Below are positions 5,769 through 60,326 of a DNA stretch of 64,000 nucleotides, piece by piece. Position numbers and translations under genes: made by a program. Origin of the DNA: Sphingomonas sp. Its GTDB lineage: Bacteria; Pseudomonadota; Alphaproteobacteria; Sphingomonadales; Sphingomonadaceae. Below the pieces are notes generated by a model. It saw nothing but the letters and a program-made list of their open reading frames with translations. It searched no databases and was not told the origin of the DNA. The stretch lies in contig NZ_JAHBZI010000001.1 of NCBI RefSeq assembly GCF_019635515.1, forward strand, positions 1,116,001-1,180,000, read 5' to 3'. The first letter of the stretch is position 1. Every line of letters starts with the position of its first letter.

Positions 5769-7204
5769 TGGGATCGATCCGGCGCGTTGTGATCCTTGGC
5801 GGCGGCGTGGCCGGCTGGATGAGTGCGCTCGCGCTCAGCCGTGCATTGGAAGGTAGCGGCATCGCGCTCGACCTGGTCGAAATCGGTGGCCCCGATCATA
5901 GCATCGGTCCGTTCGGCCCCGGCGAAGCGACGCTGCCAGCATTCCACCTTTTCCTGGGCGATTATGGCATCGACGAGGATGCCTTGCTCCGCGCTGCGCG
6001 TGGCACCTTCGCCCTCGGCGCGGCCTTTTCAGGCTGGGGGGGGCAGCAATCGGCGTGGTTCCTGCCCTTTGGCGACATTGGCGCGGCGATGGGTCCGGTC
6101 GGGTTCCCGCCGCTCGTCGCTAAGCTCCGCGCCGCCGGGCACCCGGTGCGGCCCACGGATTTCTCGCTCGCCGCGGTCGCCGCCGCGGCGGGTCGCTTCA
6201 CGCGCCCCAGCGACGATCCGCGCTCGGTGCTGTCGAGCTACGGCTATGGCCTGCACCTCGACAAGGCGGCGCTGGCGGCGGTCTGTCGCGGGCTGGCTCA
6301 AGGTGTGACGGGCCATCCATCGCCATTCGTTCGGGCGATCCGTGCCGGGAACGGTCATGTCACGGCGCTGGAACTCGAAAGCGGCGCGCAGGTCGCGGGC
6401 GATCTCTTCCTCGATTGCTCCGGCCCCGCCGCCTTGCTCAGCCAGGATCATGGTTTCGACAGCTGGTCCGCATGGCTTGCCTGCGATCGCGTCATCGAAG
6501 GCGCTTCTGCGCAAGATGGGGTGCCGCCGCCCTATACTCACGCTGCCGCGCATCCGGCCGGCTGGCGGCGCAGCGTGCCGCTGCTCGGCGGCCCCAGCGA
6601 GGCGACGCTGTTCGCCTCCGCGCACCACACCGACAGCGCCGCCACAGCGATCCATCAGGGCCGCCGCGTGCGCGCCTGGCAGGGCAATGTCGTCGCCATC
6701 GGTGCCGCCGCGGCGCTGATCGAGCCGCTCTACGGCCACAACCTTCAACTCGCGCACCGCGCGATCCAGCGCTTGGTCGCCTTGTTCCCCAATCACGCCG
6801 AGGGGCCGGAGGCGGCCGAGTATAATCGTATCGCCGGCGAGGAAGCCGATCGCGTCCGCGACTTCGTCATCGCCCATTACAAGACCAACGGGCGCATTGG
6901 CGAACCCTTCTGGGACGCGGCGCGGGCGATGGCGGTGCCCGATACGCTGCAATACAAGCTCGATCTCTACGCCAGCCGCGGCCGCATGCCGATGTATGAC
7001 GAGGAATTGTTCGATCGCGGCGAATGGATCGCCGCGCTGGATGGCCAGGGAGTGCATCCGCGCCGCTATGATGCACTCGCCGATACCGTGCCCGAACCCG
7101 CTATAATCCAGCACGTCACCCGGCTGCGCGAACTGATCGTCGATGCGGCCAAGGCGATGCCCAATCACGGCGTGACGCTGGCGCAGATCGGAGGCGCGGT
7201 ATGA
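5768..7204 (+). CDS. Halogenase-fold protein 2, catalytic residues lost
   Basis: A 478-residue paralogue of its neighbours; its start overlaps the preceding stop by one base (TGATG). It keeps the FAD-binding GGGVAGWM and PGEATLP motifs. It differs at every halogenase-defining site: alanine (A82 in GTFALG) replaces the catalytic lysine, WRRSVP replaces WxWxIP, and IEPLYGH (Y322-G323) replaces LEPLEST, removing the Glu-Ser pair. It also lacks the QHR-GNG stretch of the others. It probably binds FAD but cannot halogenate by the known mechanism; a scaffold role or another flavin reaction are alternatives. The frame is intact, including an eight-G run near 6037, so it is not an obvious pseudogene. 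Confidence 0.88.
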   Translation: MGSIRRVVILGGGVAGWMSALALSRALEGSGIALDLVEIGGPDHSIGPFGPGEATLPAFHLFLGDYGIDEDALLRAARGTFALGAAFSGWGGQQSAWFLPFGDIGAAMGPVGFPPLVAKLRAAGHPVRPTDFSLAAVAAAAGRFTRPSDDPRSVLSSYGYGLHLDKAALAAVCRGLAQGVTGHPSPFVRAIRAGNGHVTALELESGAQVAGDLFLDCSGPAALLSQDHGFDSWSAWLACDRVIEGASAQDGVPPPYTHAAAHPAGWRRSVPLLGGPSEATLFASAHHTDSAATAIHQGRRVRAWQGNVVAIGAAAALIEPLYGHNLQLAHRAIQRLVALFPNHAEGPEAAEYNRIAGEEADRVRDFVIAHYKTNGRIGEPFWDAARAMAVPDTLQYKLDLYASRGRMPMYDEELFDRGEWIAALDGQGVHPRRYDALADTVPEPAIIQHVTRLRELIVDAAKAMPNHGVTLAQIGGAV

Positions 7205-8721
7205 CCGCGCTCCAGCCGATCCGCAGCATCGTCATCGTCGGCGGCGGCACCGCCGGCTGGATGGCGGCGGCCGCCTTTTCGCGCCTGACGCGCACTGGCG
7301 TGAAGGTCACCCTGGTTGAATCCGATGCGATCGCCACCGTCGGCGTCGGCGAGGCGACGATCCCGCCGATCCGCAATTTCAACGGCCTGCTCGGCCTCGA
7401 TGAGAACGACTTCCTCGCCAGGACGCAGGGCACGCTCAAGCTCGGCATCGATTTCGTCGGCTGGCGGTATGAGGGCGACCGCTATTTCCACCCCTTCGGC
7501 GAGTTCGGCTTCGATATAGAGGGCGTGAAGTTCCACCAATTCTGGCGCAAGCTCCACGAAAGCGGCCTGGCCTCGGGCATTGGCGACTATAATCTCTGCG
7601 CGCGCGCCATGGATCTTGGCCGCTATCAGCCGCCTTCGAGCGATCCCGCCTCGATCCTGTCGCGCATGGCCTATGCCTATCAGTTCGATGCTTCGCTCTA
7701 TGCGGGGTATCTGCGCGAATATGCCGAGAAGCGCGGTGTGGTCCGCCTCGAAGGCAAGGTCGTCGAGGTGCCGGTGCGCGGCGAGGACGGGCATATCGAG
7801 GCGGTAGTGCTGGAAGGGGATCGCCGGGTCGAAGGCGAGCTCTTCATCGACTGCACCGGTTTTCGTGCGCTGCTGATCGAACAGACGCTCGGCGCCGGCT
7901 GGGAAAGCTGGGCGCACTGGCTGCAATGCGACCGCGCCGTCGCGGTGCCCTGCGAATCCGCCCCCGATGGCACGATCACGCCGTATACCCGCTGCACCGC
8001 GCACAGCGCCGGATGGCAGTGGCGGGTCCCGCTCCAGCACCGGATCGGCAACGGTTACGTCTATTGCAGCGGCGACATTTCAGACGATGCCGCGCGGGAG
8101 ACTCTGCTCGCCAATCTCGATGGCGCAGCCTTGCGCGATCCCTTCATCCTGAAGTTCGAAGCCGGACGGCGGAAGAAGGCGTGGCACAAAAACTGCGTCG
8201 CATTGGGCTTGTCATCGGGCTTCCTCGAACCGCTCGAATCGACCAGCATCCATCTGATCCAGGCCGGAATCTCCAAACTTATGGCGCTGCTGCCCGATGT
8301 CGGCTTCAGTGCCATCGAGCGCGACGAATATAACCGCCTGACCGATATCCAGATGGAGCAGGTCCGCGACTTCATCATCCTCCACTATCACGCCAATGCG
8401 CGGAAGGATGGCGATCTCTGGCGCCGTGTCCGCGAGATGGAAATCCCCGGCACGCTGACCCGCAAGCTCGACCTGTTCCGGGGTCGTGGCCGCCTGTTCC
8501 GCTATGAGGATGAGCTCTTCGCCGAATCCTCCTGGATCGCGGTGATGTTGGGGCAGGGGATCTACCCCGCCGGCTGGGATCCGCTGGCTGACACGATTGA
8601 TCCCGTGCAAATCCGCAACACGCTCGACCGTATCAAGGCGCTGTTCGCCCAGACCGCCCAATCGATGCCGCGCCATGAGGAATGGCTCGCGCGCAACGCA
8701 CCCGCCCGGAGTTTCGCATGA
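7201..8721 (+). CDS. Flavin-dependent tryptophan-halogenase family protein 3
   Basis: A 506-residue halogenase whose ATG overlaps the preceding TGA (ATGA). It shows the FAD motif GGGTAGWM, GVGEATIP, lysine K80 (GTLKLGIDF), WQWRVP at 272-277 (Val for Ile in the signature) and LEPLE-ST with E346-S347. All residues needed for flavin-dependent halogenation are therefore present. It resembles proteins 1 and 4 more than protein 2, which suggests serial duplication with one copy diverging. It is translationally coupled within the operon. Oligosaccharide-linked aromatics or indoles are possible substrates, but this is speculation. Confidence 0.92.
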   Translation: MTALQPIRSIVIVGGGTAGWMAAAAFSRLTRTGVKVTLVESDAIATVGVGEATIPPIRNFNGLLGLDENDFLARTQGTLKLGIDFVGWRYEGDRYFHPFGEFGFDIEGVKFHQFWRKLHESGLASGIGDYNLCARAMDLGRYQPPSSDPASILSRMAYAYQFDASLYAGYLREYAEKRGVVRLEGKVVEVPVRGEDGHIEAVVLEGDRRVEGELFIDCTGFRALLIEQTLGAGWESWAHWLQCDRAVAVPCESAPDGTITPYTRCTAHSAGWQWRVPLQHRIGNGYVYCSGDISDDAARETLLANLDGAALRDPFILKFEAGRRKKAWHKNCVALGLSSGFLEPLESTSIHLIQAGISKLMALLPDVGFSAIERDEYNRLTDIQMEQVRDFIILHYHANARKDGDLWRRVREMEIPGTLTRKLDLFRGRGRLFRYEDELFAESSWIAVMLGQGIYPAGWDPLADTIDPVQIRNTLDRIKALFAQTAQSMPRHEEWLARNAPARSFA

Positions 8722-10220
8722 CCGACAATCGCATCCGCAGCATCGTCATCGTCGGCGGGGGCACCGCGGGCTGGATGGCGGCGGCGACGCTGTCGCGGAT
8801 CCTCACCACGGAATATGCCAGCATCACCCTGATCGAATCCGATGCGATCGGCACGATCGGCGTCGGCGAGGCGACGATCCCGCAGATGGCGACCTTCAAT
8901 CGCATGCTCGGGCTCGACGAAGACCAGTTCATGCGCGAGACCCAGGGCACCTTCAAGCTCGGTATCAAGTTCATCGATTGGGCACGCAAGGGGCATATCT
9001 ACTATCACCCATTTGGTAAATATGGCTTGGATATGAAGGGTGTGTCATTCCATGCCTATTTCATGCGCCTTCACCAGATGGGAGAAGCTCCGGATATCGA
9101 TCAATGGTCGCTCCAGGCGATGGCGAGCCGCGACAATCGTTTCATGCGCCCGATCGATGCGGGCAATTCGCCGCTCAGCGAAATCCCTTACGCCTTCCAT
9201 TTCGATGCCGGTCTCTACGCCAAGTTTCTGCGCAATTATTCGGAAGAACGGCGTGTTGTGCGCCGCGAAGGCATGATCAACGAGGTCAGACTGCGCGGCG
9301 AGGACGGCTTCGTTCAGTCGGTCGTCCTCCAGGACGGTAGCGAGATCGAAGGCGATCTGTTCATCGATTGCTCGGGCTTCCGCGGGCTGATCATCGAGCA
9401 GACGCTCAAGGCGGGCTATACCGACTGGTCGAAATACCTGCCGTGCAACCGCGCCATCGCGGTGCCATGCGAAAGCATCGACGAATGGACGCCCTATACC
9501 CAATCGACCGCGCACAGCGCCGGCTGGCAATGGCGCATCCCGCTCCAGCACCGCATCGGCAACGGCCACGTCTTCTGCTCCGAATTCATGAGCGATGACG
9601 AGGCGACCAGCATCCTGCTCGCCAATCTCGACGGCAAGCCGCTCGCCGATCCGCGCACCGTCCCGTTCATGACCGGCCACCGCAATAAATTATGGGTCAA
9701 GAACTGCGTCGCGCTCGGCCTGTCGGGCGGGTTCATCGAGCCGCTCGAATCCACCGCGATCTGGCTGGTCCAGTCTGGCCTGTCGCGCTTCCTGACGATG
9801 TTCCCGGATCGCAATTTCAATCAGGCCGACATCGATCGCTACAACCGGATCATGACCACTGATTATGAGGAAATCCGCGACTTCCTCGTCCTTCACTACA
9901 ACGCCACCGAGCGCGACGATTCGCCATTCTGGGACTATTGCCGCAATATGGAGATTCCGGAGCGTTTGGCGGAAAAGATGCGGGTGTTCCGCACGCATGG
10001 CCGCTGTTTTCGCGAGAATGAGGAATTGTTCAATGATACCAGTTGGTTCGCGGTCATGCACGGCCAGCTGATGACCTCGCAATCCTATGATCCCGTCGCC
10101 GACATCATGAGCCTGGAGGAGACCCGCTCGCGCCTCGACCACATCCGCGAAGCGATCGCCAATTCGGCCGATTACATGCCCAAGCACAAGGACTTTGTCC
10201 GCGAGCATTGCGCGGCATGA
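8718..10220 (+). CDS. Flavin-dependent tryptophan-halogenase family protein 4
   Basis: A 500-residue halogenase. ATG at 8718 is chosen for its ATGA overlap with the previous gene rather than the longer reading from 8682. It carries GGGTAGWM, GVGEATIP, K80 (GTFKLGIKF), WQWRIP at 270-275 (exact WxWxIP) and IEPLEST with E344-S345. The catalytic set is complete. It is the last halogenase of the operon, and its stop overlaps the start of the GH43 gene, tying halogenase and glycoside-hydrolase translation together. No signal peptide is visible, so the enzyme should be cytoplasmic whereas the hydrolases downstream are exported. Confidence 0.92.
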   Translation: MTDNRIRSIVIVGGGTAGWMAAATLSRILTTEYASITLIESDAIGTIGVGEATIPQMATFNRMLGLDEDQFMRETQGTFKLGIKFIDWARKGHIYYHPFGKYGLDMKGVSFHAYFMRLHQMGEAPDIDQWSLQAMASRDNRFMRPIDAGNSPLSEIPYAFHFDAGLYAKFLRNYSEERRVVRREGMINEVRLRGEDGFVQSVVLQDGSEIEGDLFIDCSGFRGLIIEQTLKAGYTDWSKYLPCNRAIAVPCESIDEWTPYTQSTAHSAGWQWRIPLQHRIGNGHVFCSEFMSDDEATSILLANLDGKPLADPRTVPFMTGHRNKLWVKNCVALGLSGGFIEPLESTAIWLVQSGLSRFLTMFPDRNFNQADIDRYNRIMTTDYEEIRDFLVLHYNATERDDSPFWDYCRNMEIPERLAEKMRVFRTHGRCFRENEELFNDTSWFAVMHGQLMTSQSYDPVADIMSLEETRSRLDHIREAIANSADYMPKHKDFVREHCAA

Positions 10221-17609: not shown

Positions 17610-19025
17610 ATGAATCAATCGGCGGAGAGGACCAATCTGGGCCTCGTCTTCGCCATCGTCGCGGTGGCGACGATCGGCGGCTTGCTGTTCGGCTATGACA
17701 GCGGCGCGGTGAACGGCACCCAGCCGGGCCTCACCGCCGCGTTCGGCCTCGACGATGCCAGTCTCGGCTTCACCGTCGGCTCGCTGCTGATCGGCTGCGT
17801 AATCGGCGCCTCGCTCGCTGGCGTCCTCGCCGACGCGATCGGCCGCCGCGCGGTGATGCGCCTCGCCGCCTTGCTGTTCCTCGGCGGCGCGCTGGTTCAG
17901 GGTTTCGCGCACGATCACACCCTCTTCGTCATCGCCCGCATCATCGGCGGCATGGCGGTCGGCGCGGCATCGGTGCTGTCTCCGGCGTACATCTCCGAAG
18001 TCGCTCCCGCCAATATCCGCGGGCGAATGACGACGGTGCAGCAGGTGATGATCATCACCGGCCTCACCGCCGCGTTCCTCGCCAATTACTATGTCACTTC
18101 GATCGCTGGGGTTTCGACCAACAAGATCTGGGCCGATATCGAGGCATGGCGCTGGATGTACCTGCTGCAGGCGGTACCGGCGGCGGTGTTCCTGATCGCG
18201 CTGTTCTTCATTCCGGAAAGCCCGCGCTACCTGGTGTCGAAGGGCCGCAACGAGGAAGCCAACGCCGTCCTTACCAACCTGTTCGGAGCTGGCGCTGCCG
18301 CCGCCAAGGTCGCCGAGATCCAGGCGACCTTCGCCAACGATCACCGTCCGCGCCTCAGCGATGTGCTGACTCCCAAGGGCGGCGCCGGCTTCCTCGGCGT
18401 CCGCAAGATCGTCTGGGTCGGCATCATGCTGGCGGTGTTCCAGCAGCTCGTCGGCATCAATGTTATTTTCTATTATGGCGCCACGCTGTGGCAGGCTGCC
18501 GGCTTCAGCGAGCAGGATTCGCTGATGATCAACATCGTATCGGGCGCGGTCTCGATCGCCGCCTGCTTCGTGACGATCGCGGTGATCGATAGGATCGGCC
18601 GCAAACCGCTGCTGCTGATCGGTTCGGTCGGCATGGCCGCGTCGCTCTTCGCGATGGTCTATGCCTTCAGCCAGGGTGGCATCGTCGACGGCAAGCTCAT
18701 GCTTCCGGACGACGCTGGCAAGATCGCGGTATGGGCCGCCAACATCTATGTGATCTTCTTCAACGTCAGCTGGGGCCCGGTGATGTGGGTGATGCTCGGC
18801 GAGATGTTCCCGAACCAGATCCGCGGCTCCTCGCTGGCGGTCGCTGGCTTCTTCCAATGGGCCGCCAACTACGCGATCGCCCAGGCCTTCCCGATCATGC
18901 TCGCCAAGATCGGCTTGGCGTACAGCTACAGCTTCTACGCGGTGTGCGCGGTGATCAGCTTCTTCCTGGTCGCCAAGTTCGTTCACGAGACCAAGGGCAA
19001 GGAACTGGAGGCGATGGAGGGGTGA
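17610..19025 (+). CDS. MFS sugar porter, xylose/glucose-proton symporter type
   Basis: A 471-residue inner-membrane transporter of the sugar porter family. Twelve hydrophobic segments are visible. Signature motifs are GYDSGAVNG after helix 1, ADAIGRRAVMR between helices 2 and 3, PESPRYLVSKGR before the central loop, QQLVGINVIFYYG in helix 7, DRIGRKPLL, and C-terminal HETKGKELE. AAGGAGGGG precedes ATG 17610, so TTG 17607 is not needed. The family includes XylE and GalP; with xylD directly downstream and the Weimberg genes nearby, xylose is the likely substrate. Operator 4 precedes it. Transcription into xylD would cross a palindromic repeat. Confidence 0.92.
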   Translation: MNQSAERTNLGLVFAIVAVATIGGLLFGYDSGAVNGTQPGLTAAFGLDDASLGFTVGSLLIGCVIGASLAGVLADAIGRRAVMRLAALLFLGGALVQGFAHDHTLFVIARIIGGMAVGAASVLSPAYISEVAPANIRGRMTTVQQVMIITGLTAAFLANYYVTSIAGVSTNKIWADIEAWRWMYLLQAVPAAVFLIALFFIPESPRYLVSKGRNEEANAVLTNLFGAGAAAAKVAEIQATFANDHRPRLSDVLTPKGGAGFLGVRKIVWVGIMLAVFQQLVGINVIFYYGATLWQAAGFSEQDSLMINIVSGAVSIAACFVTIAVIDRIGRKPLLLIGSVGMAASLFAMVYAFSQGGIVDGKLMLPDDAGKIAVWAANIYVIFFNVSWGPVMWVMLGEMFPNQIRGSSLAVAGFFQWAANYAIAQAFPIMLAKIGLAYSYSFYAVCAVISFFLVAKFVHETKGKELEAMEG

Positions 19026-19031
19026 CAATTC

Positions 19032-19163
19032 GATCCTCCCCGGCACGGGGAGGGGGACCGCCCGCGCAGCGGGTGGTGGAGGGGGTTCTCCCAATCGAGT
19101 CGCTTGTGGCTGGCCCCCCTCCACCAGCCTGCGGCTGGTCACCCTCCCCGTGCCGGGGAGGAT
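19032..19163. repeat. Long palindromic repeat, copy A
   Basis: A 132-bp imperfect palindrome starting GATCCTCCCCGGCACGGGGA and ending in its mirror image. It fills the porter-xylD gap. The right arm supplies GGGGAGGA 10 bp before the xylD ATG. It closely matches copy B at 42429-42560. Confidence 0.92.
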
Positions 19164-40452: not shown

Positions 40453-40946
40453 AAGTGATCCTCGCCCGCATGCCCGCGCTGGACGCGGCCCTGATCCGCT
40501 TCGATACGTGGTGGAGCGGTCTGTCGCGCCGCGAACGCATCCTCGTCGGTTCGCTCGGCACCCTGCTCGCGGTGCTGGTCCTGACCTACGGCGTGATCAA
40601 ACCCCTCCAGTCCGCCCGCGCCGATGCCCTCGCCGATATCCGAACCTATGAGACGCTCAACGCCCGTACCCTTGCCGCCGGCACGTTGAGCCGCGCCCCC
40701 ACGCCGCGCCGCCAGGGCGCGCCGCTCGAGATCGCCAGCACCTCCGCCGCCGCGCTCGGACTCGCCGCCACCCCCGAAGCGACCTCGGGCGGCGTCCGCG
40801 TCACCGTGGCCGACGCCAATTACGATAATCTGATGGCCTGGCTCGCCGATCTCGTCGCGACCAGCGATCTGCGCGCCACCCGCGTCGCGATCCAGCGCGG
40901 CAAGGCGCCGGGCCGCGTCTCGGCGGTGGTGGATCTGGCGCCATGA
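40449..40946 (+). CDS. gspM: Type II secretion inner-membrane protein GspM
   Basis: A 165-residue protein with one membrane segment (about 32-50, ILVGSLGTLLAVLVLTYGVI), preceded by WWSGLSRRER, the usual GspM entry. A coiled stretch and a small ferredoxin-like periplasmic domain follow (VRVTVADANYDNLMAWLADLVATSDLRATRVAIQRG). It binds GspL and GspC in the inner-membrane platform. Start and stop overlap gspL and gspE (ATGA at both ends). Confidence 0.9.
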   Translation: MKVILARMPALDAALIRFDTWWSGLSRRERILVGSLGTLLAVLVLTYGVIKPLQSARADALADIRTYETLNARTLAAGTLSRAPTPRRQGAPLEIASTSAAALGLAATPEATSGGVRVTVADANYDNLMAWLADLVATSDLRATRVAIQRGKAPGRVSAVVDLAP

Positions 40947-42430
40947 ACGAGACGCTGGCTCTCATCCCCGATACGCCTCCGGTTTTGCCATATAGCTTCG
41001 CGCGCCGAAACGGCGTGCTGCTCCGCGTCGGCGCCCATGGTCTCGAATGCGTCCACCGCGAAGCCGCCGCGCTCGATGCCTTGCTCGAAGTCCAGCGGAT
41101 CGCTCCCGCGGCGGCGTTCGTCGCCGTCGCCGATCCCGCCTTCGATGCGGCGCTCGGCGCGGCCTACGGCGGCGCCGGCACGGCGGCCGACATCGACATC
41201 GGCGACATCGATCTCGCCGCGTTGGCAGACAGCGCCGCCGCGGTCGATGACTTGCTCGACACGCGCGACGACGCCCCCGTCATCCGCCTGATCAACGCGC
41301 TTTTGCTGGAGGCGGTGAAAGAGGGCGCGTCCGACGTTCATATCGAGACGCAGGAAAAGCGCCTCGTCGTGCGCTTCCGCATCGATGGCGTGCTGCGTGA
41401 CCGCATCGAGCCGCCGCGCGCTTTGGCGCCGTTGCTGGTCAGCCGCATCAAGGTGATGGCCAAGCTCGACATCGCCGAGCGCCGCGTGCCACAGGATGGC
41501 CGCGTCACGCTGCGCATCGGCGGCCATGACGTCGATGCCCGCGTCTCGACGATTCCGACCCAGCATGGCGAGCGGGTGGTGATGCGCCTGCTCGAAAAAG
41601 GCTCGCTCCGCCTCGATCTCGAAGCGCTCGGCATGAGCGCCCGCGACCGCGACGTGTTCAACAAATTGCTCGAGCGCCCGCACGGGATGCTGCTGGTGAC
41701 CGGCCCGACCGGATCGGGCAAGACGACCACGCTATATGCGGCGCTCAACACGCTGAATGACCGTAAACGCAATATCATGACGGTCGAAGATCCCATCGAA
41801 TATGAACTTGCCGGGATCGGCCAGACCCAGGTCAATCCGCGTACCGACCTGACCTTCGCGCGTGGCCTGCGCGCGATCCTGCGCCAGGATCCGGACGTGA
41901 TCATGGTCGGCGAGATCCGCGATCAGGAGACCGCGCAGGTCGCGGTCCGCTCGTCGATGACCGGCCATTTCGTGCTCTCGACCCTGCACACCAACAGCGC
42001 CGTCGGCTCGGTAACCCGGCTGATCGACATGGGCGTCGAGCGCTATCTGCTCGCGCCGATGGTGGTCGGCCTCGCCGCCCAGCGTCTCGTCCGCAAGCTG
42101 TGTCCCAATTGCCGCCGCGAGGATGCCGCGACCGATGCCGATGCGCTGCTGCTCGGCGGCGCGATCCGGGCCGGCGAAAAGGTCTGGCGCGCCGAGGGCT
42201 GCGGCGAATGCCACCAGGACGGCTATCGCGGCCGCGCCGGGCTCTATGAGGTTGTCGCGGTCGACGAGAAGTTCCAGAAACTGGTCCATGACGGCGCCAG
42301 CGAGGCCGAGCTTGAAAAGCGCGCGCGCAAGAGCAGCCCCAGCCTGCTCGATGACGGCATCGACAAGATCCGCGCTGGTCTCACCACGGTCGAGGAAGTC
42401 GCGCGCGTCGTGCGGGACGAGGCACTATGA
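40943..42430 (+). CDS. gspE: Type II secretion ATPase GspE
   Basis: A 495-residue secretion ATPase. A shortened N1E-like region (1-100) precedes the ASDVHIE motif and the RecA-like domain: Walker A GPTGSGKT (254-261), Asp box and Walker B ILRQDPDVIMVGEIRDQET, His box HTNSA. The tetracysteine zinc domain CPNC ... CGECHQDGYRGRAGLYEV is present. It powers pseudopilus growth. Its stop lies at the border of the long palindromic repeat that separates it from gspF. Confidence 0.94.
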   Translation: MNETLALIPDTPPVLPYSFARRNGVLLRVGAHGLECVHREAAALDALLEVQRIAPAAAFVAVADPAFDAALGAAYGGAGTAADIDIGDIDLAALADSAAAVDDLLDTRDDAPVIRLINALLLEAVKEGASDVHIETQEKRLVVRFRIDGVLRDRIEPPRALAPLLVSRIKVMAKLDIAERRVPQDGRVTLRIGGHDVDARVSTIPTQHGERVVMRLLEKGSLRLDLEALGMSARDRDVFNKLLERPHGMLLVTGPTGSGKTTTLYAALNTLNDRKRNIMTVEDPIEYELAGIGQTQVNPRTDLTFARGLRAILRQDPDVIMVGEIRDQETAQVAVRSSMTGHFVLSTLHTNSAVGSVTRLIDMGVERYLLAPMVVGLAAQRLVRKLCPNCRREDAATDADALLLGGAIRAGEKVWRAEGCGECHQDGYRGRAGLYEVVAVDEKFQKLVHDGASEAELEKRARKSSPSLLDDGIDKIRAGLTTVEEVARVVRDEAL

Positions 42431-42560
42431 TCCTCCCCGGCACGGGGAGGGGGACCGCCGCGAAGCGGTGGTGGAGGGGGAGCGCCACGAAGCGCACCGC
42501 CTGCTGCACGCCCCCTCCACCAGTCTGCGGCTGGTCCCCCTCCCCGTGCCGGGGAGGATC
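42429..42560. repeat. Long palindromic repeat, copy B
   Basis: A 132-bp element closely similar to copy A, same orientation, between gspE and gspF. It begins inside the gspE stop codon, and its right arm supplies GGGGAGGA for gspF. The sequence just before it (ACTATGA) is the ATGA pattern seen at other gsp junctions. Confidence 0.92.
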
Positions 42561-42563
42561 ATA

Positions 42564-43781
42564 ATGCCAGCCTTTGCATACAGGGCAGCCGATCGCGCCG
42601 GTGTCGCCCGCAAGGGCGTGATCGAAGCCGCTACGCCGGCCGCCGCCCGCGCAATGCTGCGCGAGCAGGCGCTGCTGCCGCTGTCGGTGGAAGTCGCGGG
42701 CGAGCGCCGTAAGGGTCTATCGCTTCCCGATTTCCGCCGCGGCGCGCTCTCGCCCAAGGCACTCGCCACGATCACCCGCCAGATCGCCACGCTGGTCGGC
42801 TCGGATATCGCGATCGAGGAATCGCTTCGCCTCGTCGCCTCGCAGTCCGAGCAGCCAAAGGTCAGCGCATTGCTGCTCGAAGTGCGCGCGAGCATCCTTG
42901 ATGGCCGCAGCTTCGCCGCCGCGCTGGCCGCCCGGCCCAAGGTGTTCCCGGAATTCTATCGCGCCTCGGTCGCCGCCGGCGAAGCGTCGGGCAGGCTGCC
43001 CGATGTCCTCAACCATCTCGCCGAATTCGTCGAGAACCGGCAGGCGAACGGCCAGAAGCTCCAGCTCGCTCTGCTCTATCCGGCGCTGCTCGCAATCGTT
43101 TCGTTCGGAATGATGGCGATGCTGATGGTCTATGTCGTCCCTGACATCGTCCGTGTCTTCATCTCGCGCGGCGCCGATCTGCCGCTGCTCACCCGGATGC
43201 TGATCGCGATCAGCTGGTTCGTCCAGAAATTCGGGCTCTATGCGTTGCTCCTGCTGGCTGTTCTCGCATTGTGGTTCGCGCGTTGGGCACGGGTGCCTGC
43301 CAACCGGTTGCGGATGGACCGTTTCTTCTCCGAACGCCGCCCGTTCCGCCGCTTCAGCCGCCAGCTCAGCGCCGCCCGCTTCGCCGGCAGCCTCGCCACG
43401 CTCGTCGGCAGCGCCGTGCCCCTGGTCGAGGCGCTGCATGCCGCCGCTGCGGTCACCCCCAATCGCTGGGTCCGCGAGAAGGCGCTCGGGGTCGCCGCCC
43501 GCGTCCGCGAAGGCATCAGCCTGCGCGCGGCGATGCAGGAGGCGGGGGTGTTCCCGACGATGCTCGTTGCCATCGTCGCCTCGGGCGAATCGTCGGGCAA
43601 GCTCGCCCCGGCGCTCAGCCGCGCCTCGACCGAGCTCGAGCGCGAGCTCGATGCCCTGGTTTCCGCCTTGGTCGCGCTCGCCGAGCCGCTGGTGCTGCTG
43701 GTGATGGGCGGGCTGGTGCTGATGATGGTGCTGGCGATCCTGCTGCCGATCATCAACCTCAACAATCTGGTGACGCTCTAA
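42564..43781 (+). CDS. gspF: Type II secretion inner-membrane platform protein GspF
   Basis: A 405-residue polytopic protein with the two repeated GspF cytoplasmic domains (about 65-170, LSPKALATITRQIATLVGSDIAIEESL; and about 265-375, FAGSLATLVGSAVPLVEALHAAA), each followed by membrane helices. It has the family signature VASGESSGKLAPALSRAS. ATG 42564 is preceded by the repeat-derived GGGGAGGA. It anchors the ATPase complex and the pseudopilus base. It converges on gspN with a 4-bp gap. Confidence 0.93.
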   Translation: MPAFAYRAADRAGVARKGVIEAATPAAARAMLREQALLPLSVEVAGERRKGLSLPDFRRGALSPKALATITRQIATLVGSDIAIEESLRLVASQSEQPKVSALLLEVRASILDGRSFAAALAARPKVFPEFYRASVAAGEASGRLPDVLNHLAEFVENRQANGQKLQLALLYPALLAIVSFGMMAMLMVYVVPDIVRVFISRGADLPLLTRMLIAISWFVQKFGLYALLLLAVLALWFARWARVPANRLRMDRFFSERRPFRRFSRQLSAARFAGSLATLVGSAVPLVEALHAAAAVTPNRWVREKALGVAARVREGISLRAAMQEAGVFPTMLVAIVASGESSGKLAPALSRASTELERELDALVSALVALAEPLVLLVMGGLVLMMVLAILLPIINLNNLVTL

Positions 43782-52831: not shown

Positions 52832-55297
52832 ATGTTGCGTCACTATCTCAAAGTCAGCTTTCGCGTCTTCGCACGCAACAAGCTGTTCACGGCGGTGAAC
52901 GTAGCCGGTCTGTCGATCGGGCTGGCGGGCTGCATCCTGATCCTTCTGTTCGTTCGCCACCAGCTTTCCTACGACAAGTGGCTGCCGGGCGCCGAGCGCA
53001 TCTACGCGGTGCAATCCACCATGGCCGGCGTCGGCGAGGCGCCGCTGCGTTCGGCCCGCAGTCCGCGCGTCACGTCGCAGATGCTTGCGCGTCAGATTCC
53101 GCAGCTCGAGGAAACCCTGGCGCTGACTCCCGAGCGGTCGGTGGTCAATGTGAACGGCCAGCCCCGCTTCGTCGACCTCACCTTCGCCGATTCTAATTTC
53201 TTCCGCGTTTTCGACCTGCCGTTCGCGCGCGGTGATGCCAAGAGCGCGCTCGCCAGACCGGGCAATCTCGTGCTCACCGAAACGGAGGCGCACAAGCTGT
53301 TCGGTTCGGCCGATCCCATGGGAAAGACGGTGACATTGTCGTATCGCGGCGATCCGTACGACTTGGTCGTGAGCGGCGTGATCCGCGATTTGCCGGACAA
53401 CAGCCATCTCAAGGTCGGCCTCGTCACGCCCTATGCCAACTCGCTTTTCGGAGTGAGCGAAGGAGAGGCGGAAAGCTGGTCCCAGTTCGAAAGCTTCGTC
53501 TATGTGAAGCTGCGGCCGGGCCAGTCGGTGCAACCGATTGCGACGGCGATGCCCGACATCGTCCGCCGCAACATTCCGAACGATGCGGAGGCGCATCCCG
53601 CCGAGCTTCGGCTGGCGGCCGTGCCCGACATCCATCTCGATCACTCCCACGAAGGAAGCATGAAGCCCGGCGGCGATCGAGTCGCGATCCTGGCCTTCTC
53701 GCTCATCGCGCTGCTGATCCTCACCATTGCCTGCATCAATTTCGCCAACCTGGCCACGGCGCAGGCGAGTATGCGGGCGCGCGAGGTTGCGCTGCGCAAG
53801 GTTCTCGGCGCGCATCGCGGACAACTCATCGTCCAGTTCCTGGGCGAGGCGATGCTCCTGACGACGATCAGCGCGGTGCTGGCGCTGGCGGTCGTCGAGA
53901 TGATTCTGCCCACCTTCTCGTGGCTGGTCGGTGCGGACCTGCGGCTGGACTATTTCGGCAGCGACGGGCTTGCGGTTCCGCTCTGCCTGCTCGTCGGCAC
54001 GGTGGGCCTGATCTGCGGCTTCTATCCGGCATTCGTCCTTTCCCGTTGCTATCCGGGCGCGATGCTGCGGTCCTACCATGCGGGTACCGAAGGATCGGTT
54101 CGCCTGCGCAACCTTCTCGTCGTCAGCCAGTTCGCGATCTCGATCGGCCTTATCATCTGTACTGCGGTCATCTACGCCCAGACCCGCTACGCGCAACGCG
54201 CCGACCCCGGCTATCGCGCCGAAGGGCTGCTGGTGGTGGAAAATATCGAGCGTGCCGATGTCGATACCCGGCGAAGCTTTCACGAGCAGGTCCAAAAGTT
54301 GCCCGGGATCCTGTCCGTCACGCGCGCGAATGTCGCGCCGGCCGACGACGAGGAGAATAGTGGGCGCTTCCAGCTTCCCGGGCGGCCGCAGCCGGTCTCG
54401 CTGAACTACAACAGCGTCGACTGGGATTTCCAGAATACGCTGAAGCTGCCGCTGATCGCCGGCCGCTTCCTCGACGAACGGCACCCCGGCGACGATGCGT
54501 CCGTCGGTTACAGTCCCTATGCCGCGGATGCCGAGGCGCTGCTTCAGCATGGCACCAACGTGGTCCTGAGCGCCAGCGCGGCGCGGCGGCTCGGCTTCGG
54601 CTCGGCGCAGCAGGCGATCGGCCGGCAAATCCGTTCGCCGTTCCTGTTCCGCCCGGAACTCGTGCCCTCCACCATCGTTGGTGTCGTCGGCGATGCGCAT
54701 TATCGCTCGGTTCGCGATCAGGTTCGCCCCACGGTCTACCATCTCAACGCGCGGCGCTACACCTATCTGATCGCGCGCTACGATCCCGACGAATCCCCCG
54801 CGGCCGTGCGCGCGCGAGTCGAGACCTTGTGGCGCCGATATTATCCGGAAGTTCCCTTCGTGGCCGACTTTGCGAGCGCCAGGGTGGCCCGGCTCTATTC
54901 CGGGGAGGCGATGCGCGGGCAGGTTTTCGCCAGCGCGGCTCTGCTCGCCCTGATCGTCGCTTGTCTCGGACTATTCGGCCTGACGACCTTCGCGGTCGCA
55001 CGGCGACGGAAGGAAATCGGCCTGCGCAAGCTTTTCGGCGCGAGCTACGGTCAGATCACCCGCCTGCTGATCTGGCAATTGTGCCAGCCGGTGCTGCTTG
55101 CCAATCTGATTGCCTGGTCGGCCGCATGGTGGGTGATGCGCGACTGGCTCAACGGCTTCGACACGCGGATCGCTCTGACGCCGGTGCCGTTCCTGGTCGC
55201 GGGGCTGCTCGCGGTGGCCATCGCGGTCGCCACGGTCGCCAGCCAGTCGCTGCGGGTCGCCCGCACCAATCCCATCCACGCACTGCGCTACGAATAG
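52832..55297 (+). CDS. Double-FtsX ABC permease 1
   Basis: An 821-residue permease starting at ATG 52832 after AAAGGGGA. The order is TM1 (FTAVNVAGLSIGLAGCILILLFV), a periplasmic MacB-PCD domain (about 50-270), FtsX helices (about 285-400, with FANLATAQASMRAREVALRKVLG), TM5 (LLVVSQFAISIGLIICTAVIYAQ), a second PCD, and a second FtsX set (LFGLTTFAVARRRKEIGLRKLFGA) ending HALRYE. Two FtsX units in one chain suggest that the protein can provide both half-transporters. It differs more from permeases 2 and 3 than they do from each other. Confidence 0.9.
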   Translation: MLRHYLKVSFRVFARNKLFTAVNVAGLSIGLAGCILILLFVRHQLSYDKWLPGAERIYAVQSTMAGVGEAPLRSARSPRVTSQMLARQIPQLEETLALTPERSVVNVNGQPRFVDLTFADSNFFRVFDLPFARGDAKSALARPGNLVLTETEAHKLFGSADPMGKTVTLSYRGDPYDLVVSGVIRDLPDNSHLKVGLVTPYANSLFGVSEGEAESWSQFESFVYVKLRPGQSVQPIATAMPDIVRRNIPNDAEAHPAELRLAAVPDIHLDHSHEGSMKPGGDRVAILAFSLIALLILTIACINFANLATAQASMRAREVALRKVLGAHRGQLIVQFLGEAMLLTTISAVLALAVVEMILPTFSWLVGADLRLDYFGSDGLAVPLCLLVGTVGLICGFYPAFVLSRCYPGAMLRSYHAGTEGSVRLRNLLVVSQFAISIGLIICTAVIYAQTRYAQRADPGYRAEGLLVVENIERADVDTRRSFHEQVQKLPGILSVTRANVAPADDEENSGRFQLPGRPQPVSLNYNSVDWDFQNTLKLPLIAGRFLDERHPGDDASVGYSPYAADAEALLQHGTNVVLSASAARRLGFGSAQQAIGRQIRSPFLFRPELVPSTIVGVVGDAHYRSVRDQVRPTVYHLNARRYTYLIARYDPDESPAAVRARVETLWRRYYPEVPFVADFASARVARLYSGEAMRGQVFASAALLALIVACLGLFGLTTFAVARRRKEIGLRKLFGASYGQITRLLIWQLCQPVLLANLIAWSAAWWVMRDWLNGFDTRIALTPVPFLVAGLLAVAIAVATVASQSLRVARTNPIHALRYE

Positions 55298-55307
55298 GAT
55301 CACGCCG

Positions 55308-57806
55308 ATGTTGCGGAACTATCTGATTGTCGGCCTCCGGGCGCTGGCCAAAAACCGCGTCTACGCCTTCATCAACATCTTCGGGCTCGCGCTGGGGATC
55401 GCCGCGTGCCTGCTGATCCTCAGCTATGTGCGCTACGAGTTCAGCTACGATGCGTGGCGGACCGATGCCGATCGCACCTATCAGTTCCAGACCAACTTCT
55501 TGGGCAATGCCGCGGGCCAGCCTTCGATGCTGTCGCAGACCACCGCCTATGTCGCGGTGGCGGCGCTCAAGAAGGACTTCCCGCAGATCGAGAAGGTCGT
55601 TTACGCCAGTAACCAGAACCTGATCTATCTGAAGGACGGCCAGCCGATCAACGCGACGCGCGGCATGATCACGGATGGCGCGCTGTTCGACGTGGTGCAG
55701 GTGCCGTTCTTGCTGGGCGACCGCGTCCATGCGCTCGACGATCCGGCATCGGTGGTGCTGAGTCAGGAGGAAGCGACCAAGCTCTACGGCGCGGCGAATC
55801 CAATCGGCAAGACGCTGACCGTGGTGAGTGGCGACAGCAATGTCGACTACCGCGTCACCGGCGTGTTCCAGGACATTCCCAGGAACAGCACGCTACGCCC
55901 GACGATGGTGATCCGCATCGACGCCCCGGTCTATTTCCGCAATACGCCCGGCGCCTATAATTCGTGGCGCTGGCAGAACGGGCAGGTCTACGCGAAGCTC
56001 AAGCCCGGCGCCGATGTCGCTGCGATCAATGCGCAGATGCCGCAATGGGAAAAGCGCAACATTCCGGACGATCTGGGCAGCGGGCCCAAGTCCAATCCCG
56101 GTGATGACGAAGACTTTGTCCTCACCAACATTCAGGACATTCATATCGGCAAGAGCCGGGGCCCGGCGGTCACGACCGAGCGCGGCACGGTGCTGACCTT
56201 TGCGGTGGTCGCGCTTTTGATCCTCGCCATGGCCTGCATGAACTTCACCAATCTCGCCACCGCGCGCGCTTCGCAGCGCGCCCGCGAAGTGGCGCTGCGC
56301 AAGGTGCTTGGGGCGACGCGCAAGCAATTGATCGCGCAGTTCATCGGGGAATCGGTGCTGGTGGCGGCGATCGCCACGCTGATCGCGCTGGCGATCACCG
56401 AAGTGACGCTGCCGCTGCTCAACGCCTTCCTCGACGCCGAGATCGCGGTTCACTATCTGGGCAGCGACGGCATCCTGCTGCCGGTGATCGTGCTGGCGCT
56501 GGCGGTTGGTCTGGCTGGCGGACTCTACCCGGCCTTCTACCTGTCACGCTTCGAGCCGGCGCGGATTCTCAAGGCCAACAAGTCAGCCGCCGATGCCGAG
56601 GGCACCGGCCGCCTGCGCAGCCTGCTCGTGATCACCCAGTTTGCGGTGTCGATCGGGCTGATCATCTGCACTGCCATCGTCTACGGCCAGACCGCCTATT
56701 CGCGGAATGTTGCCGCAGGCTATCAGCGCGACGGGCTGCTCCAGATCAACGGCGTTGCCCGCCCGCAGGTCGAGACCGTATCCAAATCCCTGCTCGAGGA
56801 AATCCGCAAGGTTCCCGGCGTGGTCGATGCCGCGCGCACCAATATCGGTATCGCCACCGGCAACAACTCCTCGACCATGGTGCATCTGCCGGGTCAACAG
56901 ACCGGGCCGGAACTGGGTATCTACGCGATCGACGATCGCCTGATCGCCACGCTCGACATGAAGCTGATCGCCGGGCGCAATTTCTCACAGGCGATCGCCA
57001 CCGACGATTCGACCACGCCGAGCGTGCCCGATCTCGAGATCGAGAAAGCGCTGCTGGCGCGCGGGGTCAATGCGATCCTGTCCGAAAGCGCGACCGAGCG
57101 GCTCGGTTTCACATCGCCGCAAGCGGCGATCGGCAAGCATGTTCAGGTCGGCATCGTCAGCCCCGAATTGGGCGAGGCGACGGTAACGATCGTCGGGGTC
57201 GTCGCCGATGTGCGCTATCGCACCGCGCGAGATCCGGTGCAGCCGATCATCTATTTCTATCAGACCGGTGGCTTCGGCAGCCTGCTGGTCCGCGTCTCGG
57301 GCGATCGCGCCGCGATTTCCGAGCGGATCGGCGCGGTTTGGAAGCGGCTCGTGCCGGATATTCCCTATACCGCCCGCTACGTCACCGACATCGTCAACGA
57401 CCTCTACAAGGCCGACGAGAAGCGCGCGCAGTTGTTCGGGATATTCGCGATCCTCGCGGTGGTGATCGGCTGTCTCGGGCTGTTCGGGCTCGCCGCCTTC
57501 ACCGCCGAACAGCGGACCAAGGAGATCGGCATCCGCAAGGTGCTCGGCGCGCGGACGCTGGATATCGCCCGGCTGCTGGTGTGGCAGTTCAGCCGGCCGG
57601 TGCTGATCGCCAATCTGATCGCCTGGCCAATCGCCTGGTGGGTGATGCGTGGCTGGCTGAATCAGTTCGATGTGCGCATGTCGCTGACGCCGGTCCCGTT
57701 CGTCGAGGCGGGGGCCGTGGCGCTGCTGATCGCGGTGCTGACGATCGGCGCGCATGCGATGCGGGTCGCGCGCACCAAGCCTATTCACGCCCTTCGCTAC
57801 GAATAG
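55308..57806 (+). CDS. Double-FtsX ABC permease 2
   Basis: An 832-residue permease, 10 bp after permease 1. The same double layout is seen: TM1 (NRVYAFINIFGLALGIAACLLIL), PCD, FtsX helices (MNFTNLATARASQRAREVALRKVLGATRKQLIAQF), TM5, second PCD and terminal helices (GLFGLAAFTAEQRTKEIGIRKVLGART). Large parts are almost identical to permease 3, so the two are recent tandem duplicates. The exported substrate is unknown; MacB-type relatives move peptides, lipoproteins or toxins, and some transmit mechanical signals. Confidence 0.9.
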   Translation: MLRNYLIVGLRALAKNRVYAFINIFGLALGIAACLLILSYVRYEFSYDAWRTDADRTYQFQTNFLGNAAGQPSMLSQTTAYVAVAALKKDFPQIEKVVYASNQNLIYLKDGQPINATRGMITDGALFDVVQVPFLLGDRVHALDDPASVVLSQEEATKLYGAANPIGKTLTVVSGDSNVDYRVTGVFQDIPRNSTLRPTMVIRIDAPVYFRNTPGAYNSWRWQNGQVYAKLKPGADVAAINAQMPQWEKRNIPDDLGSGPKSNPGDDEDFVLTNIQDIHIGKSRGPAVTTERGTVLTFAVVALLILAMACMNFTNLATARASQRAREVALRKVLGATRKQLIAQFIGESVLVAAIATLIALAITEVTLPLLNAFLDAEIAVHYLGSDGILLPVIVLALAVGLAGGLYPAFYLSRFEPARILKANKSAADAEGTGRLRSLLVITQFAVSIGLIICTAIVYGQTAYSRNVAAGYQRDGLLQINGVARPQVETVSKSLLEEIRKVPGVVDAARTNIGIATGNNSSTMVHLPGQQTGPELGIYAIDDRLIATLDMKLIAGRNFSQAIATDDSTTPSVPDLEIEKALLARGVNAILSESATERLGFTSPQAAIGKHVQVGIVSPELGEATVTIVGVVADVRYRTARDPVQPIIYFYQTGGFGSLLVRVSGDRAAISERIGAVWKRLVPDIPYTARYVTDIVNDLYKADEKRAQLFGIFAILAVVIGCLGLFGLAAFTAEQRTKEIGIRKVLGARTLDIARLLVWQFSRPVLIANLIAWPIAWWVMRGWLNQFDVRMSLTPVPFVEAGAVALLIAVLTIGAHAMRVARTKPIHALRYE

Positions 57807-57818
57807 GAGGCGGTCCCC

Positions 57819-60326
57819 ATGTGGCGCAACTATCTGACGGTCGGACTGCGGTCGCTGGCGAAGAATCGCGTCTATGCGTTCATCAACATTTTCGGGCTGT
57901 CGCTCGGCATCGCCGCGTGCCTTCTGATCCTGCTCTACGTCCAATATGAGCGCAGCTACGACGCGTGGATGGCGGATGCCGATCGTGTGTATCAGCTGCA
58001 GGTCACCTATCAGAGCAAGACGACCTCGGACCATTTCGAGAATCAGGGCGCGCAATACGTCACCAAGCCCGCACTGCTGAAGGACTTCCCGCAGATCGAG
58101 AGTGCGACTTATTTCGGCGGCGGCACGCGGATCACGGTGCTGCGGGAGGGTCGCGCTTATACGCCCGACAATGCGGCGCTGACCGACAGCAGCTTCTTCG
58201 AAACGGTGCCGCTGCCGCTGGTTGCCGGCGATGCCAAGGCGCTGGCGCAGCCGGGCACCGCGGTGCTCAGCGAACGCCAGGCGAAGAGCCTGTTCGGCAG
58301 CACCGATATCGTCGGCCAGACACTGACCGTGCTGACGATGGGGGTGAAGGCCGATTACCGGATCACCGGGGTGATGAAGGACACGCCCAAGAATTCGCAC
58401 ATGGACATCGACCTGCTGGTCCGCGCCGATTTCCCCAGCCTCTATGCTCAGGGCCATCTCGAACAGTTCCTCACCGCCTGGGGTTGGACCGGCGGCTGGG
58501 TCTATGTGAAGCTGAAGCCGGGCGTGGACGTGGCGACGATCAATTCGCAATTCGCGGCCTGGGAAAAGCGCAATATCCCCAACGAAACCGATAACGGCCG
58601 CACGACCAATGCGGGCGACGAGCGGGATTTTCGCCTGGTCAATGTCCGCGACGTGCATCTGGGCAAGGCGCAGGGATCGGCGATGACGGCGGGCAATGAC
58701 GCCACATCGATCGCGACCTTCGCCATCGTCGCGCTGCTGATCCTCGGCATGGCGTGCGTGAACTTCACCAATCTGGCGACGGCGCGTGCCAGCCAGCGGG
58801 CGCGCGAAGTGGCGCTGCGCAAGGTGCTGGGCGCGACGCGCAAGCAGCTGATCGTGCAGTTCCTGGGCGAATCGCTGTTGCTGGCGGCGATATCGACCTT
58901 GGTGGCGCTGGCTTTGACCGAAATCGCCCTGCCATGGTTCAGCCAGTTCCTCGATGCCGATCTCGATCTGGATTATTTCGGAGCGCATGGCGTGATCCTG
59001 CCGGTGCTGGCGCTGGTCGTGCTGGTGGGGGCAGCGGGGGGCGTCTATCCGGCGCTCTACCTCTCCCGCTTTGAGCCGGCCCGCGTGCTGAAAGCCAATA
59101 AATCGGCTGCGGATGCGGAAGGCAGCGGCCGGCTGCGCAGCGGGCTGGTGGTGATCCAGTTCGCGGTTTCGATCGGGCTGATGGCATGCACCGCGATCGT
59201 CTATGGCCAGACGATCTACGCGCGCACGCTCGATCCCGGCTATCAGCGTGACGGCCTGATCCAGGTAAGCGGTGTCGGCTCGGCATCCTTTTACGGCCGC
59301 GAAGACGCACTGCTGCGCCAGCTGCTACAGGTGCCAGGCGTCGAGAGCGTCGGCCGCACCGGCATCGGCGTCAATACCGGCAACAACTCTTCCACGACGG
59401 TTACCGTGTCCGGGCGCAGCGAGCCGACCGATATCGGCTATTATGCCGTGGATCCCGGCTATTTCCCGACCATGGGTATCCGCACCGTTGCGGGCCGCGT
59501 GTTCGACCGCAACCGCCCCGGCGACGATACGACGACGCCGCAGCCGGAAAATGCCGCCGCGGAGGCGGCGCTGGCACAGCGCGGCGCCAATGTCGTGATC
59601 AACGAAGCAGGCGTGAAGCGGCTGGGCTTCGCCAGCGCGCAGGACGCGATCGGCAAGACGATGCGCTTTGGCATCGACGAGAAATATGGGGGCGCAATGA
59701 CGCTTACCGTCATCGGCGTGGTCGCGGATTCGCGGTTCCGCACTGTCAATACGCCGATCGAGCCGATCATCTTCGCCTGGAACGGCAATGGCGTGTATTG
59801 GCTGATGGCGCGGTTCAAGGGCGATGGCGCGGCGGTTCGCTCCGGCATCGAGAATGTGTGGCGCAGCTTCGCACCCGATGTCGCGTTCGACGGGCAGTTC
59901 AGCGACGCGATCATGGAGCGGAGCTATCGCCGGATGGATGCGCGGGCCCAGATGTTCGGCCTGTTCGCGATCCTTGCGGTCGTGGTCGGTTGCCTCGGGT
60001 TGTTCGGCCTTGCGGCATTTACCGCCGAGCGGCGGACCAAGGAGATTGGCATCCGCAAGGTGCTCGGCGCCCGCACGCGCGACATCGTGCGGTTGCTGAT
60101 CTGGCAGTTCGCGCGGCCGGTGGTGATCGCCAATGTCATCGCCTGGCCGGTCGCGTGGTGGGTGATGCGCGACTGGCTCAACCAATATGATGCGCGGATG
60201 ACGCTGACGCCGATACCGTTCGCGCTTGCCGGGCTACTGGCGCTGGTGATCGCCGTCGTCACTATCGGCGCCCACGCCTTCCGCGTGGCGCGCACCAATC
60301 CGGTATATGCCTTGCGCTACGAGTAG
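57819..60326 (+). CDS. Double-FtsX ABC permease 3
   Basis: An 835-residue permease, preceded by AGGAGG, 12 bp after permease 2. TM1 (NRVYAFINIFGLSLGIAACLLIL), the FtsX core (FTNLATARASQRAREVALRKVLGATRKQLIVQF) and the final block (FGLAAFTAERRTKEIGIRKVLGART) nearly repeat permease 2, while the periplasmic domains differ more. This is what a duplicated permease with new substrate contacts would look like. It is the last gene of the operon; a strong terminator follows 25 bp later. Confidence 0.9.
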   Translation: MWRNYLTVGLRSLAKNRVYAFINIFGLSLGIAACLLILLYVQYERSYDAWMADADRVYQLQVTYQSKTTSDHFENQGAQYVTKPALLKDFPQIESATYFGGGTRITVLREGRAYTPDNAALTDSSFFETVPLPLVAGDAKALAQPGTAVLSERQAKSLFGSTDIVGQTLTVLTMGVKADYRITGVMKDTPKNSHMDIDLLVRADFPSLYAQGHLEQFLTAWGWTGGWVYVKLKPGVDVATINSQFAAWEKRNIPNETDNGRTTNAGDERDFRLVNVRDVHLGKAQGSAMTAGNDATSIATFAIVALLILGMACVNFTNLATARASQRAREVALRKVLGATRKQLIVQFLGESLLLAAISTLVALALTEIALPWFSQFLDADLDLDYFGAHGVILPVLALVVLVGAAGGVYPALYLSRFEPARVLKANKSAADAEGSGRLRSGLVVIQFAVSIGLMACTAIVYGQTIYARTLDPGYQRDGLIQVSGVGSASFYGREDALLRQLLQVPGVESVGRTGIGVNTGNNSSTTVTVSGRSEPTDIGYYAVDPGYFPTMGIRTVAGRVFDRNRPGDDTTTPQPENAAAEAALAQRGANVVINEAGVKRLGFASAQDAIGKTMRFGIDEKYGGAMTLTVIGVVADSRFRTVNTPIEPIIFAWNGNGVYWLMARFKGDGAAVRSGIENVWRSFAPDVAFDGQFSDAIMERSYRRMDARAQMFGLFAILAVVVGCLGLFGLAAFTAERRTKEIGIRKVLGARTRDIVRLLIWQFARPVVIANVIAWPVAWWVMRDWLNQYDARMTLTPIPFALAGLLALVIAVVTIGAHAFRVARTNPVYALRYE

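Follow-up and report, generated by a model that had tools for sequence, protein, structure and literature searches.

The described systems closest to the feature analysed here are the REP, BIME and REPIN repeats with their RAYT (the GTAG superfamily), the CGTC-tagged palindromic repeats of Alphaproteobacteria, the MITEs and the CIR elements of Caulobacter. A further point of reference is given by Vsr-like (EDxHD) homing endonucleases such as I-Bth0305I, in which a Vsr-related nuclease fold is tied to element mobility and which sit with introns or inteins. The CGTC palindromic repeats are described, in the part of the source available to us, as having no dedicated transposase (PMC3733652). Here we describe a palindromic element that lies between gspE and gspF in a Sphingomonas sp. 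genome. The window, that is, the whole stretch of DNA that was analysed, is 64,000 bp long, and coordinates are window positions unless a locus is named.

The element and its junction between gspE and gspF

The junction holds an element of 136 bp (42427-42562) whose first and last 30 bases form perfect terminal inverted repeats; none of 2000 shuffles gave 10 bp or more. The first-pass annotation had described a second copy, and the element is indeed a second copy of the repeat at 19032-19163. It is built of two locally palindromic units rather than being one simple insert. The features of the region are:

42427..42562, no strand assigned: element, 136 bp; a pair of palindromic units in inverted order with inner arms, the centre being variable
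42427..42456, + strand: left terminal inverted repeat, 30 bp, perfect; the stop of gspE lies in it, as does a local palindrome (42432-42450)
42533..42562, + strand: perfect 30-bp terminal inverted repeat on the right; CCTCCCC..GGGGAGG at 42539-42557 is a local palindrome
42553..42557, + strand: GGAGG in the right tip; 6 nt from the gspF ATG and a candidate Shine-Dalgarno site for that gene
40943..42430, + strand: gspE (type II secretion ATPase); stop TGA at 42428-42430, inside the left inverted repeat
42564..43781, + strand: gspF; start ATG at 42564-42566, backed by relatives' matches from residue 1
19032..19163, + strand: first copy of the same element; ATG downstream at 19173, upstream stop at 19023-19025

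Each end of the element is itself palindromic (CCTCCCC..GGGGAGG), and further in come another small hairpin and a run rich in G. The element is one of dozens of copies in the genome (82 BLAST matches, both strands counted), in which the exact tip occurs 65 times and a reversed control pattern not once. The centre differs between copies and, because the full-length ones are at most 87% identical to that between gspE and gspF, the latter has no recent twin. A search for target-site duplications among 109 copies found direct flanking repeats in excess at no offset (cut-off: reached by at most 2 of 200 shuffles), and the copies may be old. The stretch 42400-42600 folds far better than its shuffles (z -12). 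We favour reading the feature, with a probability of about 0.6, as a gene-less member of a family of palindromic and probably mobile elements in sphingomonads.

An identity among the Rfam families was considered and rejected, since the ten matches, mostly to plant microRNA precursor models, are all under the gathering scores. These matches are due to the element's long hairpin (42420-42573), which reaches E values down to 6e-9 at scores far below gathering and is thus a trap for automatic annotation. Elsewhere in the window, three direct repeats about 2.5 kb apart and 66-80% alike (53692-60241) are probably three tandem related genes, and at 4278-9962 there are four tandem related genes, each starting with a GGGTAGWM-type motif (by eye), which we take to be like flavin-dependent tryptophan halogenases.

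The comparison with relatives covers 81 named or own gspF loci, 74 of them with gspE upstream (the others are L082, L091, L092, L093, L095, L108 and L120). The junction is empty, with a gap of less than 10 bp, in 28 of the 74. Stop and start overlap by one base in 20 of these 28 (18 TGATG and 2 TAGTG), and of the remaining eight, one distant row has a longer overlap and the others are separated by 3-8 bp. Empty, overlapping junctions are found in S. soli, several other Sphingomonas, Stakelama marina, Rhizorhabdus and Brevundimonas, the form TGATG being that of S. soli, L060, L068, L070, L090, L096, Rhizorhabdus and Brevundimonas. The proposal that the element had been inserted at a former ATGA junction therefore stands as regards a former overlap and the presence of empty sites in close relatives, but the overlap in these relatives is the one-base TGATG, and the ATGA is the element's own tip. 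We regard insertion at a former gspE-gspF overlap as well supported.

The filled junctions are of several kinds. The window's repeat family occupies 20 of the 74, as assigned by elimination (an insert of 60-300 bp with no other family's motif) plus a check by eye, the member in L107 being degenerate. The TTCGAG family occupies 13, CCGGCGAAAG-like repeats three and the GCAAGCGGGAGGGG family one, five have a short insert (four single palindromes and one of 15 bases, by eye) and four hold a gene. Gene-like inserts of 589-702 bp lie between gspE and gspF in L061, L094, L069 and L075, so the junction accepts many kinds of insert. In a tree of GspE plus GspF with 69 rows (tree, folding and site count do without five distant rows, L130 and L133-L136, and the folding also without the four gene rows), the presence of the window's family at the junction changes 9 times, at least 7 of them forced by starred branches, and empty versus filled also changes 9 times. 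The window's genome falls in a clade with S. soli (empty, TGATG) and the MAG PMG_139 (15 bases), so that the simplest reading of the tree is a gain of the element in the lineage of the window's genome. The locus is a natural experiment on how an operon survives after an element splits overlapping genes, and relatives show it empty, with a single palindrome, full or replaced. One locus of this set (L112, RPSH01000045.1), titled Bacillus sp. 2B10, has a Sphingomonas-like gspE-gspF that groups with S. hankookensis KCTC 22579 and is probably mislabelled or contaminated.

The glyQ-glyS junction, for which 30 loci were compared, shows a similar picture, with an ATGA or GTGA overlap in some species and an insert from one of several repeat families in others; in L347, L350, L355, L372, L373 and L374 the end of glyQ is probably in another frame, judging from odd C-termini, and these rows were not counted as empty. 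In the own genome's glyS (L141, about 3095-3150), an in-frame stretch, GAPAKAGAQDSPSPDGFG, resembles a palindromic repeat translated inside GlyS.

The right tip and the translation of gspF

The ATG of gspF begins one base past the end of the right inverted repeat. The tip had been seen in the first-pass annotation as a ready-made ribosome site, and for gspF this is likely, with GGAGG 6 nt from the ATG and with a 5-nt Shine-Dalgarno match at 5-9 nt in 18 of the 20 rows of the window's family, the other two having decayed tips. Such a 5-nt site is found in 2 of 13 rows of the TTCGAG family and in 0 of 23 empty junctions, 19 of which have a 4-nt match. In S. azotifigens (L077) another family fills the junction and GCAGGGGAGGATCTG still adjoins the ATG; the relatives L128 and L074 have it in the same place, as part of full elements. 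The copy at 19032-19163, which had been counted as an independent case of the same kind, is a different one: its GGAGG is 11 nt from the ATG, and a second GAGG is nearer, at 4 nt.

We measured the distance to the neighbouring gene for 305 tips in three genomes, of which 87 face a start, 183 a stop and 35 neither. Start spacings were 0-3 nt for 9 tips, 4-9 for 26, 10-17 for 4, 18-40 for 10 and beyond for 38, and stop spacings 0-3 nt for 17, 4-9 for 57, 10-17 for 46, 18-40 for 37 and beyond for 26. Among the 36 tips that lie 4-27 nt before a start in the three genomes, 26 fall at 4-9 nt (binomial test versus a uniform spread, 3.6e-9), and the counts at 4-9 versus 10-17 nt are 26/4 for starts and 57/46 for stops (Fisher p 0.0023; p 0.0056 with the first ATG replacing the first start codon). 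Taken genome by genome, the contrast gives 0.023 in G091, 0.23 in G000 and 0.27 in G120, only the first being below 0.05; of the 24 start-facing tips of G120, just 3 have a spacing of 4-9 nt, or 5 when the first ATG is used. Gene starts were called with a simple codon-usage method for which the window was the training set, and those most trusted are of proteins whose N-termini are well known (we take them to be GspF, AcpS, GlyS, ArgF, HisA and HisF). The same placement of a tip before a start is also found upstream of genes that we take to be acpS and glyS (two genomes each) and hisA and hisF (one genome).

The stop-facing tips lend themselves to another explanation, in which the element is an ordinary REP pair (BIME-like) that lies behind stop codons and has its effect on the gene upstream. 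A hairpin near the gspE stop would then stall the terminating ribosome and protect or trim the mRNA, and nearness to the gspF start would be a by-product of short intergenic gaps. Stops are faced by 183 of the 270 gene-adjacent tips of the three genomes, 157 of the 183 being within 40 nt of the stop, and in convergent gene pairs (L005, L009) both tips hug the stops; in E. coli, translation is reduced by REPs that lie no more than 15 nt from a stop, according to the portion of PMC12306157 that reports Liang 2015. We hold this explanation to be possible at clearly less than even odds, given that the spacing differs between starts and stops (p 0.0023) and that the tip was retained at gspF after the rest of the element had been replaced (L077).

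We prefer the reading in which the right tip serves gspF. Tips are placed as a ribosome site often, not always, and behind a stop codon is their commoner seat. Families without Shine-Dalgarno-like tips occupy the same gspE-gspF and glyQ-glyS junctions, and a tip-borne ribosome site is therefore not required. Together with the 183 of 270 tips that face stops and the low count in G120, this leaves unsupported, as a general rule, the earlier suggestion that the element is tolerated because it brings its own translation signal; the copy between gspE and gspF itself likely brings its own predicted ribosome site. On the reading that we prefer, insertions in tight junctions would survive if the upstream stop is kept and the downstream gene is left a usable start, and in the window's family it would be the G-rich tip that supplies the ribosome site.

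In the predicted fold of the mRNA, the gspF site is paired with the left repeat. Opening the site costs 38.5 kcal/mol, or 8.4 kcal/mol with a ribosome on the gspE stop, in an equilibrium model (local hairpins may form first); the model's median cost at empty junctions, without a ribosome, is 8.5 kcal/mol. The insertion had been thought to have broken translational coupling. These values make that doubtful, and the coupling of gspE to gspF may have been tightened instead. With less assurance, we suggest that the 30-bp inverted repeat would pair in the mRNA and hide the gspF site, and that it would be opened by a ribosome terminating at the stem's foot, where the gspE stop lies, which would leave gspF translation still dependent on that of gspE. 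In the other filled rows, where the stop is further from the repeat, the modelled relief from a gspE ribosome is mostly little (family median, from 24.2 to 20.6 kcal/mol), so the switch is proposed just for the window's copy and for L059, L066 and L107. Stem-coupled switching by the family as a whole was rejected, relief being largely confined to cases in which stop and repeat abut.

A DUF559 nuclease between the palindromes

An associated RAYT gene had been named as something to look for. Palindromic, paired, intergenic units are what a RAYT-driven REP or REPIN would show, and the own genome does contain one Y1_Tnp fragment, a PF01797 match in a truncated 100-aa frame. A profile search of the own genome and 120 others of the genus, however, found PF01797 in just 13 of 121: the 108 genomes without a match include the ten richest in tips, and in the 13 with a match the number of tips ranges from 0 to 93 (median 8). 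The element is also without a GTAG tag, both GTAG and CTAC being absent from its 136 bp as read by eye. A RAYT was thus rejected as partner, and a RAYT-driven origin of the element is very improbable.

Some longer copies of the family carry a gene of another kind. Between glyQ and glyS of the own genome (L141), the same tips enclose an open frame of up to 163 aa, its start uncertain, with a DUF559 domain, and the one long copy examined in each of G091 and G120 (L411 and L412) has DUF559 between the same kind of tips. The PF04480 matches have E values of 2.9e-31 (L141), 6.8e-26 (L411) and 3.4e-25 (L412), and the DUF559 protein matches the endonuclease-like protein 3hrl (E 5.3e-17). The three nucleases, which come from different species and share the window's repeat type, form a clade (support 98/88). 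DUF559 is absent from two middle-sized own copies (L153, L154).

Among the matches listed, DUF559 is present in 113 of the 121 genus genomes. The eight without a match are all among the 15 without tips (hypergeometric 7e-9, a figure that ignores descent and may reflect few clades), and seven genomes with DUF559 are also tipless. Inverted repeats within 200 bp flank 23 of the 30 best-scoring DUF559 loci, versus 1 of 148 random windows and 0 of 30 glyS loci. With 43 more loci and a limit of 250 bp, 58 of 73 DUF559 genes, the best or hand-picked of a longer match list, lie between inverted repeats; elsewhere in the class this is so for 12 of 22 testable loci (L466, L471, L479, L480, L482 and L483, whose flanks are short, and L470, of the same genus, were not counted). 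Many of the loci are common by descent, and the 73 rows reduce to 17 locus clusters. In a nuclease tree of 77 rows, the repeat types (A-E and W, labels given by our own regular expressions) need 15 changes, versus 49.3 when shuffled. With one row per locus cluster, leaving out rows of unclear or mixed repeat type (16 rows, five types), 4 changes are needed, the minimum possible, while 300 shuffles gave a mean of 8.9 and a least value of 6; one cluster of 26 mixes two repeat types, and type A therefore has no row in this distinct-locus test.

Related arrangements occur at other places. Behind gspF, relatives of S. azotifigens have DUF559-like elements in L072, L077 and L128 (the domain was checked for the genome of L077 and seen by eye in L072 and L128) and a lone similar palindrome in L074, L076, L080 and L081. 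Other DUF559 genes lie between inverted repeats of other types, of 25, 40 and 47 bp, in L407 (1501-1812), L409 (1501-1809) and L408 (own genome); a G-rich tip closes the element in L407 and L409, a few bases short of a start codon, the downstream genes being read by eye as aroC and dnaG. We found no report of a link between DUF559 and palindromic repeats in the open-licence literature.

DUF559 genes might instead be passengers or have a role in repair; they would land again and again in intergenic spots rich in palindromes, or be tolerated next to them, and something else would move the repeats. The DUF559 protein of Caulobacter (VsrA) is described, in the part of PMC12907096 that we draw on, as a putative Vsr-like mismatch-repair enzyme. 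The loci recur at few places (17 clusters for the 73 best or hand-picked rows), tips far outnumber DUF559 genes in repeat-rich genomes, and the failure to find another transposase carries little weight, PF01797 being the sole transposase profile searched. We consider this explanation doubtful, since the repeats stand on both sides of the gene in inverted order and the nuclease clade matches the repeat type at distinct loci.

The DUF559 nuclease thus appears to be a better candidate partner than a RAYT. That it moves the repeat is suggested by the linkage and the matching trees: it would act in trans on the palindromic ends and copy the element to new sites, perhaps by a homing-like cut-and-repair. 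For the joint explanation (gene-less family copy, nuclease in trans, ribosome site in the tip and coupling by the stem) we give the same probability of about 0.6. A nuclease gene inside cognate palindromes, with matching family trees, is a concrete candidate mover for repeats related to the CGTC kind and, if this is true, gives a function to a domain whose Pfam name still says 'unknown'. A broader view, which we hold tentatively and at slightly under even odds, is that Alphaproteobacteria harbour a large class of nuclease-driven palindromic elements, in which DUF559 genes between cognate palindromes are the autonomous members and gene-less copies, including that at gspE-gspF, their dependants. 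The tips would have evolved a Shine-Dalgarno look and stop codons, so that copies could wedge into overlapping operon genes and silence neither, sometimes turning a stop-start overlap into a hairpin switch opened by the ribosome.

Comparison with known systems

The element shares with REP, BIME and REPIN repeats its short paired palindromes, many copies, intergenic sites and gene-less copies beside rare gene-carrying ones; unlike them, it has no GTAG tag or Y1 transposase partner, and its gene-carrying copies encode a DUF559 nuclease. The CGTC-tagged REPs, as far as their description in PMC3733652 is available to us, are also alphaproteobacterial, form head-to-head palindromic pairs and have no dedicated transposase known. 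A CGTC-like repeat (CACCCCGGCGAAAGCCGGGG; the label is ours) fills gspE-gspF in L073, with a close form in L084, and CTCCGTCA, which contains CGTC, is present in some sister copies of the window's element, those with the other inner arm. The copy between gspE and gspF differs in that the CGTC motif (unpaired, at the palindrome end) is absent from it by eye, and its outer tips, CCTCCCC..GGGGAGGAT, do not occur in the motif as that part of PMC3733652 gives it.

MITEs such as ERIC, Correia/NEMIS and RUP are, in the parts of PMC2229807 and PMC10969869 used here, non-autonomous, gene-less elements with terminal inverted repeats whose longer, gene-bearing copies share the same ends. The element matches this as a short (136 bp), gene-less sequence with 30-bp perfect terminal inverted repeats, the same ends of which flank DUF559, a putative mobility gene, in L141, L411 and L412. 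Unlike MITEs, it has no target duplication that we could find, and the gene of its longer copies is a PD-(D/E)XK nuclease, not a known transposase. The Caulobacter CIR elements, in the part of PMC2229807 available, are likewise alphaproteobacterial intergenic repeats of similar size with two inverted-repeat arms; they bear GANTC methylation sites, whereas the window's element, read by eye over its 136 bp, has none.

The long copies L141, L411 and L412 encode a DUF559/Vsr-like domain, for which a nicking activity is putative. They thereby resemble the Vsr-like homing endonucleases of the I-Bth0305I type in having a Vsr-related nuclease, and differ from them in that the DUF559 gene lies between palindromic repeats in gene junctions.
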